From positions 1-64,000 of the forward strand of contig SVCU01000001.1 of NCBI GenBank assembly GCA_015058215.1: DNA of 64,000 nt, written 5' to 3'. The notes under the pieces were generated by a model. The model did no database searches, was not told the DNA's origin, and saw only the letters and a program-made list of their open reading frames with translations. The position numbers and the translations under genes are program-made. Positions 45,511 through 53,948 of the stretch are shown in pieces (position 1 is the first letter of the stretch; each line of letters opens with the position of its first letter). The DNA is from Clostridiales bacterium. Lineage in GTDB: Bacteria > Bacillota > Clostridia > Peptostreptococcales > Anaerovoracaceae.

Positions 45511-46047
45511 TTATTTTGCTTTGCGGATGGCGATGAAATCCTGTTTGACGCGGCTGTGTTCGTAGTTGCCGTCGATCCACATTCCCACGAACTCATCGGC
45601 CCGCATGAGCCGCACTTCGTTGTAATAGGGTTCGAAGAACAGCAGGCGATTTTCTTCCGCATCGCCCAGCGCGTAGAAGCCCAGCAGTACCATCCAGTGG
45701 GCGTAGTTCACCATGCTTTCCAGCATCACGTAGTAGCCTTCCTTCATGCGGTCCAGCACGTCGTCGAAGGTGATGTTTTTATAATCGCAGCCGTAGAGCA
45801 CGTCATAGTCTTTCAGCAGGCCGGTTTCCTTCAGTTCTTTGGAGAAGTGGGGGCCGGGCTGCAGGCTGCAGCTGCTGACGATATCAGCTTCCGCAGGCAC
45901 AGAGCCGCCTACGCCGGAGAGCATGGTGCGGATGCAGGCCAGGGCGCAGGTCCAGTCTCTTTCCTGCCGATAGAATTTGGGCGGCGTCATGGAAACGGAT
46001 TCCGTATGACGGGTCGTACCCTTCTCAAATACCTCGTGTTTTCTCAT
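45511..46047 (-). CDS. C39-like cysteine peptidase domain protein
   Basis: 178 aa, no signal peptide. YRQERDWTCALACIRTML resembles the Gln and catalytic Cys block of C39/papain-like peptidases; YAHWMVLLGFY supplies the likely His, and LFFEPYYN the position of the third residue (usually DP). Enzyme activity is inference. Its ATG overlaps the preceding gene's stop (ATGA), so it is coupled to the large membrane protein. Neither protein points to a known system. Confidence 0.6.
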   Translation of the reverse strand: MRKHEVFEKGTTRHTESVSMTPPKFYRQERDWTCALACIRTMLSGVGGSVPAEADIVSSCSLQPGPHFSKELKETGLLKDYDVLYGCDYKNITFDDVLDRMKEGYYVMLESMVNYAHWMVLLGFYALGDAEENRLLFFEPYYNEVRLMRADEFVGMWIDGNYEHSRVKQDFIAIRKAK

Positions 46048-47693
46048 TTCATTCCCTCTCTTTTTTCTTTGCGCTGCCGGTCCTTTCTGCGATCGTTGAG
46101 CCAGTTCAAGCTCAGCACCACCGCCACGATGGCGATGGAGGCCAGATAGACCAGCAGTTCCGTCATATTGTCGTTGGTCAGCGCTTCGATGATGCCGCTG
46201 ACGGATTTGGCCGTGCTGACAAAGGAGAGCAGCAGCAGGAAGCCGTTCTTGATCTTATTTTCGCGCTTGGAAATGCGGCGCTGGTTGGTTTTGATCATGG
46301 CATCCAGCAGTTCTTTGTTCTGCTCGTATTTTTCGAAGACCTGTTCCATGCCGAACAGGGCGGACACGGTTTTGGCCGACTCCCGGGTGGTGGGGAACCG
46401 GAACTGGGTGTAATCGGAGAAACGAATGGCTCTTGCCATATCGAAGTTGATCTCTTCCACCCGGTCCATGTTGATCTTGGAAATGGAGCTGTCATACTGC
46501 AGTTCCTGCTGAGCCAGCAGGTCCTTGTGGACCTTATCGATGGCCGCATCCTGGAACAGCAGCAGTTCCACGTAGAAGATCTCGATCACCTGATAGTTGA
46601 GGCGGTTCCGCAGCTGGATGGCTACAGGGTCCCAGTTTCTGACGCATTCGATCAGGGTAACGGGAGAAACATAGACCTCCGCGGTGTCGTAGAGCGCGAT
46701 GTTGCACTCTTCCACCCGCTTCCGGAACAGGCCGCCGATCTTTCCCATGGGGTATTCTTCATTGGCCAGAGCGTTGACGATGGCCTGCTTCTCGATATCA
46801 CCGTAGGCGAAGACCAGGCTCCGGTTATCACCGAAGCTGCGGATGGCGAACAGGTCCAGCAGTTCCGCCAGGGAATAGACCTTGCCGCCGTAATGGTAAC
46901 GGAGTTCGTTGCCCCGGTAATAGTTCAGCAGCTTATTGCCGCCGATGAAGCAGTTATTTACCAGGATCTCCAGCACGCAGAGGCCGGTGCTGTGGGTCAC
47001 AACGCAGATGGTGGCGGGCTGGAAGAAGCTGCCGCCTTCCACGTAATCCTGCGGGACCTCGATCACCGCAGACCCCAGACAGCGGCGGTCCAGTTCGTTC
47101 AAAAAGTCGCCTTCGTATTCCATGCGCACATTGTAATCGATGTGATCGCGGAAGAAACGGAAGACATCGTTTCCTTTGTCTTCAAAGGCCGCCCAGGGGT
47201 CGCCGGCCCAGGCCTCTTTCTTCACCTTGCCGGGCACCATCAGATAGAGATCGCTGCGGTTCAGCTGGCGATCCCGCATCAGCAGATCGCCCATGGCTTC
47301 GGCATCGTAAAGCAAGCGTTCTTCTTCCACCGTCTGGCGGCGGAAAAAAGCATAGACCGGATCGAAAGTCTGCCCTTGCTTCGCCTTCTCCCCGATGAGT
47401 TTCTCGATTTCATCTTCCGTAAGGATCTGCAGTTTCCCATCGTTCAGCTTCACCGCATCGCTTTCGAAGGACAGTACGCTCTGGAAGGCCTCAAGGCGCC
47501 AGCCGCTTTCGGCGGTCAGGGTCACCTGCAGGGCTTCCGTCTCTGCTCCGGGTTCCCTCTGCAGCCAGAAATGGCCCTTCAGGTCCTGGCGGAACACATA
47601 GTCCTTCAGCAGGACCGGTTCCTGCGCTTCACTTCGAACTCCCAGGATCGGGAACAGAGTTTCCAGAATGTACGGTGTTACGATGGTGATCAC
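46044..47693 (-). CDS. Large protein with two C-terminal membrane helices, unknown
   Basis: 549 aa. Residues 1-~300 are a soluble region I do not recognise. ~300-480 are mostly helical and charged. Two hydrophobic segments near 490-505 and 515-530 end in a basic tail (NDRRKDRQRKEKREGMK). The soluble-domain, long-helix, two-helix topology recalls CorA- or RMD1-like proteins, but no CorA GMN motif is present. Starts at GTG 47693 after AAAGGAAG. It forms a two-gene unit with the C39-like protein. Confidence 0.65.
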   Translation of the reverse strand: MITIVTPYILETLFPILGVRSEAQEPVLLKDYVFRQDLKGHFWLQREPGAETEALQVTLTAESGWRLEAFQSVLSFESDAVKLNDGKLQILTEDEIEKLIGEKAKQGQTFDPVYAFFRRQTVEEERLLYDAEAMGDLLMRDRQLNRSDLYLMVPGKVKKEAWAGDPWAAFEDKGNDVFRFFRDHIDYNVRMEYEGDFLNELDRRCLGSAVIEVPQDYVEGGSFFQPATICVVTHSTGLCVLEILVNNCFIGGNKLLNYYRGNELRYHYGGKVYSLAELLDLFAIRSFGDNRSLVFAYGDIEKQAIVNALANEEYPMGKIGGLFRKRVEECNIALYDTAEVYVSPVTLIECVRNWDPVAIQLRNRLNYQVIEIFYVELLLFQDAAIDKVHKDLLAQQELQYDSSISKINMDRVEEINFDMARAIRFSDYTQFRFPTTRESAKTVSALFGMEQVFEKYEQNKELLDAMIKTNQRRISKRENKIKNGFLLLLSFVSTAKSVSGIIEALTNDNMTELLVYLASIAIVAVVLSLNWLNDRRKDRQRKEKREGMK

Positions 47694-48951: not shown

Positions 48952-49012
48952 AGTAGAGATGTAGTTTGCCCAAAAATGGGCAGCGCTCTTTTACGACCGG
49001 AAGGAAACCACT

Positions 49013-50890
49013 ATGGCTGATTACGTGACTTTTGCAAGAGCCTATGAAGCGCTGGAGCACTGGATGGCACAGCCCGATCTGCTCCCCGTACTTCAGAGGG
49101 AACTGCAGCGTCTCATAGAACAATTAGAAAGAAACTCCGACGCAGAACTGAAAGACGAGATCTGCGATCGGTTCCATAAGCACCTGAAATACGGTACCGG
49201 CGGCCTGCGCAGCCTCATGGGTGCCGGGAACAATCGCTTCAATATTTATACGGTGCGTTGGGCCACCCAGGCCATCTGCAAGTATCTGCAGGCCGAGCCC
49301 AATGCCCCCCTGTGGAACTGCGAAGCCACCCTCACCCGCGATGAAGCCGCCAAAGGCGGTGTCAACGACAACGGCGTGGGTGCCGTCTACTCCGTGGGGA
49401 AGCCTCTGCTTTCCATGGCTGTGGCCTATGACAGCCGCACCCTGTCCGACCGCTTCGCCCTGGAGACCGCCGGCGTGCTGCTGGCCAACGGCTTCCGTGT
49501 CTACCTGTTCCCCACCACCGCGCCGGCTCCTCTGCTTTCCTTTGCCGTCCGGCACTTCGGCTGCCGGGGCGGCATCATGATCACCGCCGGTCACAACCCT
49601 TCCACTTATAACGGGTACCGGCTGTACGACAGCCAGGGCTGCCCCGTCCCCGCCCATGCGGCCGCCGACCTGCAGGCCATCATGAACGACCTGGATGTGT
49701 TCAAAGACATACAGGTCATCGAAGCGGACGCGGAAGCCTTCACCACCCGCAAGGGGCCCGACGGCCGTCCTCTGCTGAACGTGATCGGCAAGGATCTCTG
49801 GGCCGCCTACGAAGCCACCCTGCTGCGCTGCAGCAGCGGTGTCCGCTGCGAAAAGCTGGAAGTGGTCACCACGCCTCTCAACGGCACCGGCAGCGGCCTT
49901 CTGCAGGAAGTGCTGCACAAACTGGATGTGGCCCAGGTCCACGCCGTTCCCGAACAGGAAAAGCCGGACCCCAACTTCACCACCTGCCCCGTTCCCAACC
50001 CGGAGAAGCAGGAAGCCCTGCGGAAGGGGCTCACCCTCTGTGAAACCCTGTCCACCCCCGATCTTCTGCTGGCCTCCGATCCGGACTGCGGCAGACTGGG
50101 CACGGCGGTCCGTCTGAAGGAACCCCGCCCCGGGAAAGGCACCTACCAGCGTCTCACCTCCAACCAGCTGGGGATCCTTCTTCTGGATTTCCTCTGCAGC
50201 GCCCGCAGACTGCCGGATTCCCCCGTGCTGATCAAATCCGTTCTGGCCACCCCTCTGGCAGATGCCATCGCCGCCCGCTACGGTCTTACCACCATCAACG
50301 TGCTGCCCGGCTTCTCCCACATCGGCCGCCAGCTGCATACCCTGGAAAAGGAAGGCCGCCTGGGCTCCTTCGTCTTTGCCTTTGACGGCAGCGGCGGTTT
50401 CCTGTCCAACCCCGCCCTCCGCGATAAGGACGCGCTGAACGCCGCCTTCATCACCGCGGAAATGGCCGCTTATTATAAGAATCAGAACAAAACTCTGACG
50501 GAACGTCTGGAGGAACTCTACCGCAAGTACGGCTACTTCCTGGAAAAGGAACTGGAGATCTCCCTGGAAGGCCATGCCGGCAGCCTGCAGATGGAAAAAA
50601 TCATGAAGGATCTTCGCCGCAACACGCCGGAAACGGTCATGGGCAGCGATGTCATCGCCGTCACCGACTTCCTGAAACGCGAAGACGGCGGCCCCACCGC
50701 CGACATTTTCCGCATGGAGCTGGAGGACGGCGGCCGCATCACCGTGCGCCCCTCCGCCACCGAATCCAAGCTGAAGATCACCCTCTCCACGAAAGAACCC
50801 ACCCCCGAAGCTGCGGCGGCCCTGGTCGACCGCATGGAACTCTCCGTAAAAGGATGGATAAAAGAATGGTCCAAATCAACAAAGCGCTGA
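49013..50890 (+). CDS. Phosphoglucomutase-family protein with altered active site
   Basis: 625 aa, full four-domain length of alpha-D-phosphohexomutases. Fold markers such as KYGTGGLRSLMGAG are present, but four catalytic loops differ from the family: the phosphoserine loop TASHNP is TAGHNP (G193), the metal loop DPDADR is DPDCGR (356-361), the sugar loop EES is DGS (458-460), and the phosphate loop RPSGTEPK is RPSATESK (579-586). Standard mutase chemistry therefore seems unlikely. It may be a pseudoenzyme or have a new role. Overlaps the hslO start. Confidence 0.85.
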   Translation: MADYVTFARAYEALEHWMAQPDLLPVLQRELQRLIEQLERNSDAELKDEICDRFHKHLKYGTGGLRSLMGAGNNRFNIYTVRWATQAICKYLQAEPNAPLWNCEATLTRDEAAKGGVNDNGVGAVYSVGKPLLSMAVAYDSRTLSDRFALETAGVLLANGFRVYLFPTTAPAPLLSFAVRHFGCRGGIMITAGHNPSTYNGYRLYDSQGCPVPAHAAADLQAIMNDLDVFKDIQVIEADAEAFTTRKGPDGRPLLNVIGKDLWAAYEATLLRCSSGVRCEKLEVVTTPLNGTGSGLLQEVLHKLDVAQVHAVPEQEKPDPNFTTCPVPNPEKQEALRKGLTLCETLSTPDLLLASDPDCGRLGTAVRLKEPRPGKGTYQRLTSNQLGILLLDFLCSARRLPDSPVLIKSVLATPLADAIAARYGLTTINVLPGFSHIGRQLHTLEKEGRLGSFVFAFDGSGGFLSNPALRDKDALNAAFITAEMAAYYKNQNKTLTERLEELYRKYGYFLEKELEISLEGHAGSLQMEKIMKDLRRNTPETVMGSDVIAVTDFLKREDGGPTADIFRMELEDGGRITVRPSATESKLKITLSTKEPTPEAAAALVDRMELSVKGWIKEWSKSTKR

Positions 50891-51819
50891 CCGCAATGGA
50901 TAAAAGCGGGTCCTACCGGGTCTACCTGGCAGTGACCACCCCTCTGGCCGAGGAAGGCCGTAAATTCCACGATCCCACCCCCACCGGCACCGCCGCACTG
51001 TCCCGCGTGCTGACGGGTGCCGCTCTCATGGGCATCATGTCCAAGAACGACCGCGATAAGATCACCGTCCAGTTCAAGGGCGACGGCCCCGCCCGGGAGA
51101 TCCTTGCCACCTCCTACGGCACCGGCAAGGTGAAGGGATACATCTCCAACCCGGATATCGATCTGCCTCTGAAGGCAGACGGTACCCTGCCCGTGGGCGA
51201 TGCCCTGGGCATCGGCACCATCACCGTGATCCGCGACTTCGGTCTGAAAGAGCCTTACATGGGCCGCATCGACCTGGTGAGCGGCGAGATCGCCGACGAC
51301 ATGACCGCCTATTTCTTCATCTCCGAGCAGATGCCCTCTTCCGTCATCCTGGGCGAAAAGATCGCCGAAGACGGTTCTGTGGCCGCCGCTGCCGGGATGG
51401 TGATCCAGATGCTGCCCGATGCCAAGCCCGGCTCCATCGATGCGCTGGAAGCCCTGCTGAAGGACTCTCCCAACATCGCTCTACTGCTGGAAGACTGTGA
51501 AAAAGACGTGCTGGAAAACGCCGGCACCCTCTTTACCCCCGAAGCCTATGTACAGCGGGTCCTGCACCTGATGTTCGAACGCTATTTCGAAACCATGGAC
51601 CCGGACTACGCTCCCGAATTCCTGGAATTCCGGGATCTTGGCTGGGAATGCGACTGCAGCCGTCCCCGTCTGGAACAGGTTCTGCTGAGCCTGGGCGAAG
51701 ACGATCTGCGGGAACTTGCCGAGGAAGACGGCGGCGCCGAGCTGGTCTGCCAGTTCTGCCGCTCCAAATATCAATTTTCTAAAGAAGAGTTATTGCAGCT
51801 GCTTCAGGAAGGAAGGTAA
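50866..51819 (+). CDS. hslO: Redox-regulated chaperone Hsp33
   Basis: 317 aa. Holdase switched on by oxidation. The N-terminal domain shows RVYLAVTTPLAEEG and GDGPAREILA; SGEIADDMTAYFFISEQMPSSV is typical. The C-terminal zinc switch CDC...CQFC is intact. ATG 50866 fits the RBS spacing and the family N-terminus (MVQINKAL) better than ATG 50854. It overlaps the 3' end of the phosphoglucomutase-like gene by 25 nt. Confidence 0.93.
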   Translation: MVQINKALTAMDKSGSYRVYLAVTTPLAEEGRKFHDPTPTGTAALSRVLTGAALMGIMSKNDRDKITVQFKGDGPAREILATSYGTGKVKGYISNPDIDLPLKADGTLPVGDALGIGTITVIRDFGLKEPYMGRIDLVSGEIADDMTAYFFISEQMPSSVILGEKIAEDGSVAAAAGMVIQMLPDAKPGSIDALEALLKDSPNIALLLEDCEKDVLENAGTLFTPEAYVQRVLHLMFERYFETMDPDYAPEFLEFRDLGWECDCSRPRLEQVLLSLGEDDLRELAEEDGGAELVCQFCRSKYQFSKEELLQLLQEGR

Positions 51820-51825
51820 ACACAA

Positions 51826-52281
51826 ATGTTCAAGGAATTCAAGAAATTCATCATGCGCGGAAACGTGGTCGACATGGCAGTCGGTGTTGTGGTCGGCGGC
51901 GCTTTCAGCAAAATCGTTACTTCTCTGGTCAATGACATCATCATGCCCCTCATCGGCAAGCTGACCGCCGGCATGGACTTCACCGCCCTCAAGATCGTGC
52001 TCTCCGAAGCCGTTCTCAACGAAGACGGTTCCGTAAAGGTGGCCGAAGCCGCCATCAAGTACGGCAGCTTCATCCAGACCATCGTGGACTTCCTGATCAT
52101 CGCGCTGTCCATTTTCCTGGTGGTCAAGCTGATGAACAAGGCCAACGATATGGCTCACAAGAAGCAGAAGGAAGAAGAAGAAAAGGACAAGGCAGAAGCA
52201 GAAGCCGCCGCAGCCGCTGCTCCCAAGGAACCCACCGAAGCCGAACTTCTGGCCGAGATCCGCGACCTGCTGAAGAAATAA
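51826..52281 (+). CDS. mscL: Large-conductance mechanosensitive channel MscL
   Basis: 151 aa. FKKFIMRGNVVDMAVGVVVGGAFSKIV is TM1 with the MscL signature; TM2 is near 80-100; the C-terminal helix (AELLAEIRDLLKK) is preceded by a Glu/Lys/Ala-rich spacer. Opens under osmotic downshock. Begins 6 bp after hslO with GGAAGG. Confidence 0.95.
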   Translation: MFKEFKKFIMRGNVVDMAVGVVVGGAFSKIVTSLVNDIIMPLIGKLTAGMDFTALKIVLSEAVLNEDGSVKVAEAAIKYGSFIQTIVDFLIIALSIFLVVKLMNKANDMAHKKQKEEEEKDKAEAEAAAAAAPKEPTEAELLAEIRDLLKK

Positions 52282-52366: not shown

Positions 52367-53446
52367 ATGATCAAACTGGGAATTTTGTTCGGCGGCAGAT
52401 CCGGAGAACACGAAGTTTCTCTGGTTTCCGCCACCGCCATGATCCATGCCGCCGATAAGACCCGTTACCGGATCGTCCCCATCGGCATCACCAAGAAGGG
52501 CGACTGGCTGCTTTACGACGGCCCTGTCGAAAAGATCGCAGACGGTTCCTGGGAAGCCTATGCCCTGGACTGCCTGCAGAAGGACCCCGCCAGGTATTCC
52601 ATCGCCATCCTGGGCACCGGCGGCCGTTCTCTGAAGGACACGGCGGATTTCATCATCCCCGCCGTTCACGGCCCTTACTGTGAAGACGGCAAGCTGCAGG
52701 GCCTTCTGGATATGGCCGATATCCCCTATGCGGGAAGCGGCGTTACCGGCTCTGCCACCGCCATGGATAAAATCATCGCCAAGGCCATCTTCAAGGATGC
52801 CGGCCTTCCCGTGGGCCCTTATGTGCCCGTGATGGCAGAAGAATTCCGCCGCGACTATCCGGCGGTGAAGGCCCGCATCGAAGCCCAGCTTACCTATCCC
52901 GTGTTCGTGAAGCCCGCCAATATGGGCTCCAGCGTGGGCATTTCCAAGGTCAATGACGGCAGCACTCTGGAGGCCGCTCTGGAAGAAGCCGCCCGTCACG
53001 ACCGCCGCATCATCGTGGAACAGGGCATCGACGGCATCGAGGTGGAGACCTCCGTGCTGGGCAATTACGGAGACCTGCAGGTTTCCTGCGTCGGACAGAT
53101 CAGCTACACCGCCGATTTCTACGACTACGAAGCGAAGTACCAGAACGAAGACGGCCTCACCCTGACCATTCCCGCAGACCTGCCGGAAGAGATCACCGCC
53201 GAAATGAGCCGCATCGCCAAAGAAGCATTCCTCGCCCTGGATTGCTGCGGCTATGCCCGGGCAGACTTCTTCCTGGAAAAGGGCACCAACAAACTGTATC
53301 TCAACGAATTGAACACCCTTCCCGGCTGCACCGGTGTCAGCATGTTCCCTCTTCTTTGGAAGCATTCCGGCCTGGATTTCACGCAGCTGGTCGAACGGAT
53401 CGTAGAACTTGGTTATGAAAGATATTCTATTACGCATCGTGGGTAG
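52367..53446 (+). CDS. ddl: D-alanine--D-alanine ligase
   Basis: 359 aa ATP-grasp enzyme for the peptidoglycan dipeptide. LFGGRSGEHEVSLVSA at the N-terminus, PAVHGPYCEDGKLQGLLD, FVKPANMGSSVGISKV and LNELNTLPGCT at the metal site are diagnostic. The Tyr in IPYAGSG before the Ser suggests D-Ala rather than D-lactate specificity. ATG 52367 lies 7 bp after a GGAG. Confidence 0.96.
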   Translation: MIKLGILFGGRSGEHEVSLVSATAMIHAADKTRYRIVPIGITKKGDWLLYDGPVEKIADGSWEAYALDCLQKDPARYSIAILGTGGRSLKDTADFIIPAVHGPYCEDGKLQGLLDMADIPYAGSGVTGSATAMDKIIAKAIFKDAGLPVGPYVPVMAEEFRRDYPAVKARIEAQLTYPVFVKPANMGSSVGISKVNDGSTLEAALEEAARHDRRIIVEQGIDGIEVETSVLGNYGDLQVSCVGQISYTADFYDYEAKYQNEDGLTLTIPADLPEEITAEMSRIAKEAFLALDCCGYARADFFLEKGTNKLYLNELNTLPGCTGVSMFPLLWKHSGLDFTQLVERIVELGYERYSITHRG

Positions 53447-53948
53447 CCAGGGTGTGGGCGAGAAGGACGGCGATCAGATCGAATTCGTCACCGAAGGCCA
53501 TTACACCCGCAAAGAGGACGGCTCCATCCTGCTTTCCTACGAAGAAACCGAGCTTTCCGGCATGGAAGGCTGCACCACCCACCTGGAGGTGGCCGGAAAC
53601 CGCGTGCGCATGAGCCGCTCCGGCGAGCCCGTCCCCGTGGATACCATCATGGAATTTGAAAAGGGGAAGCGCTACAACGGCCTCTACGAGACCGCCTACG
53701 GCGCCATCGATATGGAGATCCTCACCAACGATGTGCTGAACAAGCTGATCGTCCACACCTCCGGTGAAGCATCCGCTGCACCTCTCGGTGCGGATGCCTC
53801 ACCTTCCGGAACATCCGCTGCACCTCTCGGTGCGGACATCGTCCAGGCCCCCAAGGGCGGCCTGTCCGGTTCTCTCCATATTGACTATCACATCAGTCTG
53901 AAGGGGCTGGGTGAAGTGCACAACCGGCTGGATGTAGAGATCCTGTAG
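53415..53948 (+). CDS. DUF1934 beta-barrel protein with repeat insert
   Basis: 177 aa. KDILLRIVGSQ...EFVTEGHYTRKEDGSILLSYEETELSG and the C-terminal SLHIDYHISLKGLGEVHNRLDV fit the DUF1934 (YwiB-like) lipocalin-like fold, function unknown. Between them, residues ~118-147 (GEASAAPLGADASPSG...) are an extra low-complexity insert made by two 25-bp direct repeats. It overlaps the ddl 3' end by 32 nt, so it is coupled to it. Confidence 0.85.
   Translation: MKDILLRIVGSQGVGEKDGDQIEFVTEGHYTRKEDGSILLSYEETELSGMEGCTTHLEVAGNRVRMSRSGEPVPVDTIMEFEKGKRYNGLYETAYGAIDMEILTNDVLNKLIVHTSGEASAAPLGADASPSGTSAAPLGADIVQAPKGGLSGSLHIDYHISLKGLGEVHNRLDVEIL
53770..53836 (+). repeat. Two 25-bp direct repeats, each a hairpin, in the DUF1934 gene
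   Basis: Identical units at 53770-53794 and 53812-53836 (CATCCGCTGCACCTCTCGGT + GCGGA), 42 bp apart. Each folds with TCCGC/GCGGA arms and a 13-nt loop; the first extends to CATCCGC/GCGGATG. Encodes SAAPLGAD twice. Confidence 0.85.

Follow-up and report, generated by a model that had tools for sequence, protein, structure and literature searches.

An altered phosphoglucomutase at the head of an hslO operon in a Clostridiales bacterium, probably non-catalytic beside a second, canonical enzyme

The window, a 64,000-nucleotide stretch of a Clostridiales bacterium genome, harbors at positions 49013–50890 on the plus strand an open reading frame that runs from ATG to TGA and encodes a 625-amino-acid, PGM2/PgcA-like phosphoglucomutase (hereafter altered Pgm). 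Its length and frame had been called intact in a preliminary description of this DNA, with which the 625 uninterrupted codons agree: none of the marks of a pseudogene (stops, frameshifts, truncation or lost start signals) is present, and a Shine-Dalgarno-like GGAAGGA, read from the sequence, lies 7 bases upstream of the ATG (48999–49005, plus strand). All four phosphohexomutase domains are represented. Domains I–III exceed the cut-off of the respective Pfam PGM_PMM models, whereas domain IV reaches 18.4 bits against a cut-off of 23.1 that is passed by the domain IV of its relatives. By homology, as judged from the Pfam domains and from structural matches of a predicted fold, the protein is a member of the alpha-D-phosphohexomutase superfamily. 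The leader just upstream of the gene contains a small stem-loop (48966–48983, TTGCCCAAAAATGGGCAG), which is possibly terminator-like or regulatory; such sites occurred near chance level in our scan.

Downstream and on the same strand follow hslO, encoding an Hsp33-like protein (50854–51819), a gene for an MscL-like channel named from its sequence (mscL, 51826–52281), the Pfam-assigned D-Ala-D-Ala ligase gene ddl (52367–53446) and a DUF1934 gene assigned by Pfam and gene order (53409–53948), with which the conserved block ends. The 3′ end of the altered pgm overlaps hslO, the true start of which may be a later ATG at about 50866. Short pgm–hslO overlaps were also seen in relatives, in an approximate comparison of loci several of which are mis-framed. 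On the other side of the altered gene, two overlapping minus-strand genes (45511–46047 and 46044–47693) encode proteins of 178 and 549 amino acids. The smaller has, by eye, the look of a papain-like cysteine peptidase (RQERDWTCALACIRTML ... YAHWMVLLGF), the larger likely possesses C-terminal membrane helices, and neither gave a Pfam match.

The arrangement downstream of the altered gene is that of its relatives. In all 19 examined members of the same GTDB family a pgm gene lies directly before hslO, which is usually followed by mscL, ddl and the DUF1934 gene in the order seen in the window. In a phylogenetic tree the altered Pgm falls within the clade formed by these operon-encoded enzymes (SH-aLRT support of 99, nine rows), to which it is 44–51% identical. 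Since gene order and tree agree, the altered pgm is the positional, vertically inherited orthologue of the family's ordinary operon pgm. Its terminal branch measures 1.3, compared with 0.07–0.5 for its clade mates. As hslO and ddl of this lineage have diverged too, part of this length is lineage-wide; the pgm distance relative to hslO and ddl is 1.44 for pairs involving the window and 1.18 (sd 0.18) for other pairs. When closer orthologues were sought, no genome of the same genus was found, and viral contigs contained none.

To place the changes in the altered Pgm we used an alignment of 124 homologues, many from Bacillota and a few from other phyla, in which 76 columns reach a conservation of at least 97%. 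The altered Pgm differs at 16 of these 76 columns (F60Y, G67S, G87A, S193G, K203R, Q211P, D360G, V411L, T432P, K435S, G456A, E458D, E459G, G582A, P585S and Y590T), while the next worst homologue differs at seven and nearly all others at none to two. Its divergence at near-invariant positions thus exceeds ordinary divergence by far, and it carries more changes than the preliminary description had listed. The catalytic phosphoserine, present in all 124 homologues, is replaced by Gly193 in a TAGHNP motif (GGT, 49589–49591), just as the preliminary description had it. The metal-binding loop reads DPDCGR (50078–50095): D360, likewise found in all 124 homologues, has become glycine (50090–50092), and Asp356 and Asp358 are kept. 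While the loss of the last aspartate from this loop had therefore been recognized correctly, the accompanying cysteine is not a change from DPDADR, because DPDCDR is as frequent and is read both in relatives and in the second Pgm of the present genome. In the sugar-binding loop (50384–50392), EES has become DGS by E458D and E459G (50384–50389) with S460 retained, and the phosphate-binding loop (50747–50770) has turned from RPSGTEPK into RPSATESK by G582A (50756–50758) and P585S (50765–50767); both alterations were seen as first described. A further domain-3 loop, TGFK in homologues, is PGFS here (T432P and K435S, 50306–50317), with the threonine and lysine found in all 124 of them. Around residues 97–132 of domain I, the altered Pgm carries an insert longer than in any aligned relative, the core of which (residues 105–128, 49325–49396) is predicted to be disordered. 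When 350 genomes of the GTDB family were searched for the TAGHNP..YNG pattern, only the present one contained it. That such changes come from sequencing or assembly is hardly credible: the source assembly does consist of 34 contigs, but the substitutions are scattered single codons within an intact frame of normal codon usage and inside a syntenic block.

A separate phosphohexomutase reading frame in a Saprospiraceae metagenome-assembled genome (L080:5667–7088) independently carries TAGHNA, again with glycine for the catalytic serine, as well as SSDAS for DGDAD and RPSRTEAIL. All 11 of its closest family relatives that were checked (49–52% identical) are canonical. Inactivation by loss of the serine, the frame remaining open, has hence arisen elsewhere as a singleton.

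What remains of the active site was mapped onto the altered Pgm by motif, with residue roles taken from the literature (PMC7761743, PMC6443537, PMC5570346). R66 at the general acid position of loop 0, H194, D356, D358, R361, S460 and K472 are kept, the last corresponding to Lys389 at the general base position of human PGM1 (PMC7761743, PMC6443537, PMC5570346). In the phosphate loop, R579, S581, T583, E584, K586 and K588 are retained, so that the phosphate-contacting arginine, serine and threonine of domain IV stand alongside G582A and P585S. Absent are the phosphoserine of the T(A/P)SHNP motif, the full aspartate trio of DxDxD and the glutamate pair of the sugar loop (now D458 and G459). In this superfamily the three aspartates bind Mg2+ (PMC5570346, PMC6443537), and glutamate and serine of the sugar loop contact O3/O4 (PMC6443537). 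As read from these residues, the carrier of the phosphate is lost together with parts of the metal-binding and sugar-binding sites, and the phosphate-binding framework is largely preserved. The loss of the phosphoserine, of the metal region and of both ligand loops had been proposed at the outset. The first holds, as does the loss of one metal ligand, but to count both loops as lost is an overstatement given that S460, most phosphate-loop contacts, H194, R66 and K472 are kept and E458D is conservative.

Since the phosphoserine and one metal ligand are missing, mutase activity of the altered Pgm is very unlikely. Replacement of the serine by alanine in AGM1 (S69A) renders activity undetectable, in a structure without metal (PMC6096347), and a fungal PGM is inactivated by a Glu-to-Gln exchange in the sugar loop (PMC9168620); in the altered Pgm several residues of this kind have changed together. 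That the protein still works as a weakly active phosphoglucomutase would draw on the S108A variant of P. aeruginosa PMM/PGM, which reportedly retains some activity (as cited in PMC6096347); against the AGM1 and fungal results we consider it very improbable. Only slightly less improbable is a new or altered catalysis, in which the remodelled site accepts another substrate or another residue stands in for the serine. The retained R66, H194 and K472, two metal-binding aspartates and much of the phosphate loop would be compatible with it, as would the residual activity reported for S108A. However, nucleophile and metal ligand were lost together, several positions now hold residues that are small or non-functional (S193G, D360G, E459G and K435S), and the 350 family genomes hold no conserved altered subfamily displaying a selected new motif. 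The new activity offered as one option by the preliminary description finds nothing that points its way.

A structure of the altered Pgm was predicted with AlphaFold2 from an alignment of 62 sequences. The model has a mean pLDDT of 91.0 and a pTM of 0.90, and only residues 105–128 fall below a pLDDT of 50. Its best structural matches are phosphoglucomutases, with E values down to 4e-30, and those in the PDB include the inactive PGM5 (6y8z/6y8y). The prediction is consistent with a conserved fold, although a confident model drawn from a deep alignment is no proof of real folding.

The preliminary description had suggested looking for a canonical pgm elsewhere in the genome, and one is indeed encoded on contig 24. 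This second Pgm of 561 amino acids carries TASHNP, DPDCDR, GYEES and RPSGTEPK, and its gene sits in a glycogen cluster with glgC, glgP, glgB and a hexokinase gene (names by family search for some, by sequence recognition for the rest). GlmM is encoded in the genome as well (contig 29). In the tree the second Pgm, which may stem from an old duplication or from transfer, falls into a clade other than that of the operon enzymes, and its type occurs in part of the family, the nearest cases being 52–67% identical. Eight genomes with this or a related non-operon type, namely those with a readable hslO locus (two of them on short contigs), showed no pgm before hslO. Possession of a second pgm thus goes along with loss of the operon copy, whereas in the present genome this copy has been disarmed rather than deleted. 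At the loci of family genomes with a non-operon pgm (L177–L184), hslO and mostly the DUF1934 gene are found together with pgm absent; in several, ddl was not found beside hslO either.

The gene configuration and the lost residues can be explained in two main ways. We favor, with somewhat better than even confidence, that the operon pgm became a pseudoenzyme after its catalysis was made dispensable by the second pgm of the glycogen cluster. A substantial but clearly lesser likelihood falls to the operon copy being a relic without function as a protein, its amino acids drifting since the second pgm arrived. On this view nothing but its place as leading cistron, overlapping hslO and followed by mscL and the essential ddl, would keep the frame open, as expression of the genes behind it would suffer from stops or frameshifts. 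The overlap of the pgm 3′ end with hslO suits such a relic, as do the faster divergence of pgm than of hslO and ddl on this lineage and the clean disappearance of the operon pgm from relatives that carry the second type. This clean loss also speaks against it, because it implies that the operon works without pgm and that the frame need not be kept.

We therefore compared the substitutions with what drift would produce. Under neutral replacement of 20–25% of residues, 4.6–5.8 stops are expected (P of 0.005–0.0025 for none), so that the stop-free frame is at least protected. Neither codon usage nor GC content by codon position departs from the genome's norm, which counts against a relic, and GC at the second codon position showed no drift signal (z 0.56). 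The rates of change at columns conserved in 100%, 90–100% and 70–90% of homologues are 25, 26 and 28%, while functional relatives changed at 0–5% of the columns in the 100% class. Such flat rates have the appearance of relaxed drift, and no function is needed to explain them. Neither are the changes significantly concentrated in catalytic loops as defined in the literature (Fisher p of 0.53–0.66), counts which do not reject drift, nor did a near-versus-far comparison separate them (Fisher test, p = 0.10). An apparent concentration at the active site with a joint P of at most 0.01 was withdrawn, as it hinged on loop boundaries widened after the changes had been seen and vanishes with the literature-defined loops.

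A test that needs no such boundaries was made by simulating neutral drift that preserves the frame, starting from ten functional sequences and running up to an equal number of losses. The replacements observed at conserved sites have a mean BLOSUM62 score of +0.4 to +0.6, compared with −0.3 to −0.7 in the simulations, and none of the 300 runs from each of the ten starts was as mild as the altered Pgm, which argues against a drifting relic. Part of this mildness may predate the loss of activity, but conserved sites would then have to have changed more before the loss than they did in any functional relative (at most 15). Core-breaking changes (6 of 93) fall only marginally short of the number expected under drift (P of 0.02–0.16, most runs being non-significant). 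A codon model of 13 taxa returned a free omega of 0.03 that is untrustworthy, with the synonymous branch saturated (t at its upper bound) and the fit at omega = 1 unconverged; GC3 of the altered pgm is 0.77 compared with 0.35–0.60 in its nearest relatives.

Taken together, the reading as a pseudoenzyme is supported by synteny, clade placement, the canonical second pgm, the 16 of 76 changed columns, the open frame, the mild replacements and the predicted fold, as well as by the precedent of PGM5 and the inactivity of AGM1 upon Ser-to-Ala exchange. What marks a pseudoenzyme, lost catalytic residues beside a canonical homologue, is found in this one genome. Against it stand the missing concentration in loops, the marginal deficit of core-breaking changes, mildness that possibly arose before the loss, the restriction to a single genome and the activity reportedly left in P. 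aeruginosa PMM/PGM S108A. The earlier proposal that the protein was kept for another role is favored by the mild replacements and the stop-free frame, but not by damage that lacks significant concentration in the active-site loops, by the saturated dN/dS estimate or by the single genome.

In the scenario of a pseudoenzyme, a gene orthologous to the family's ordinary pgm, as gene order and tree indicate, would have been relieved by the intact second pgm of another clade beside hexokinase, glgB, glgP and glgC. Loss of the serine and of a metal ligand would block ping-pong phosphoryl transfer of the kind seen in known relatives. A folded four-domain protein would still be made from the head of the hslO–mscL–ddl operon and may act through binding, be it of a sugar phosphate or of a partner, rather than through catalysis. 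Such binding could have been retained since most phosphate-contacting residues remain. Judged by its residues, the altered Pgm is most likely non-catalytic and would act, if at all, by binding; it is probably either a helper without catalytic function or a leftover protein.

The closest known system is the operon PGM2/PgcA-type Pgm of the same GTDB family, with which the altered Pgm shares operon position and four-domain fold. It differs from it in lacking the catalytic serine, the third metal-binding aspartate, the sugar-loop glutamate pair and other invariant residues, and in its longer disordered domain I insert. Vertebrate PGM5 (aciculin) resembles the altered Pgm in that the fold is kept and an active paralogue is present, and PGM5 is inactive (PMC7761743). 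PGM5, however, is a paralogue of the PGM1 type in muscle and retains the TAS(H/R) serine, DxDxD and EES (PMC7761743), whereas the altered Pgm is bacterial, of PGM2 type, and has lost serine and metal ligand. Inactive PGM5 binds glucose-1-phosphate (PMC7761743); because it keeps residues that the altered Pgm has lost, sugar-phosphate binding by the latter, by analogy, is a guess. We rate as rather unlikely a reading in which the operon Pgm, displaced by the glycogen-cluster enzyme, has turned into a bacterial equivalent of PGM5 that lacks the serine, binds sugar phosphates and serves as a regulator or scaffold, encoded at the head of the operon of Hsp33, MscL and D-Ala-D-Ala ligase. Slr1334-type glucose-1,6-bisphosphate synthases (cd05800) likewise occur as a second phosphohexomutase beside the main bacterial PGM (PMC9426568), but rely on active-site serine chemistry and belong to another subfamily.

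Pseudoenzymes and an inactive phosphoglucomutase, mainly vertebrate PGM5, are already known; a serine-less, inactive bacterial phosphoglucomutase with a history of this kind was not found in the literature searched. Homology-based annotation would label the altered gene an active pgm. Resting so far on one genome, the case has modest weight. Within the family the route can be traced from an operon enzyme, through a second, glycogen-cluster copy belonging to another clade, to clean loss in some relatives and to lost catalysis with an intact frame here. The family thus lends itself to comparing the ways in which an enzyme of central metabolism turns into a pseudoenzyme or dies.
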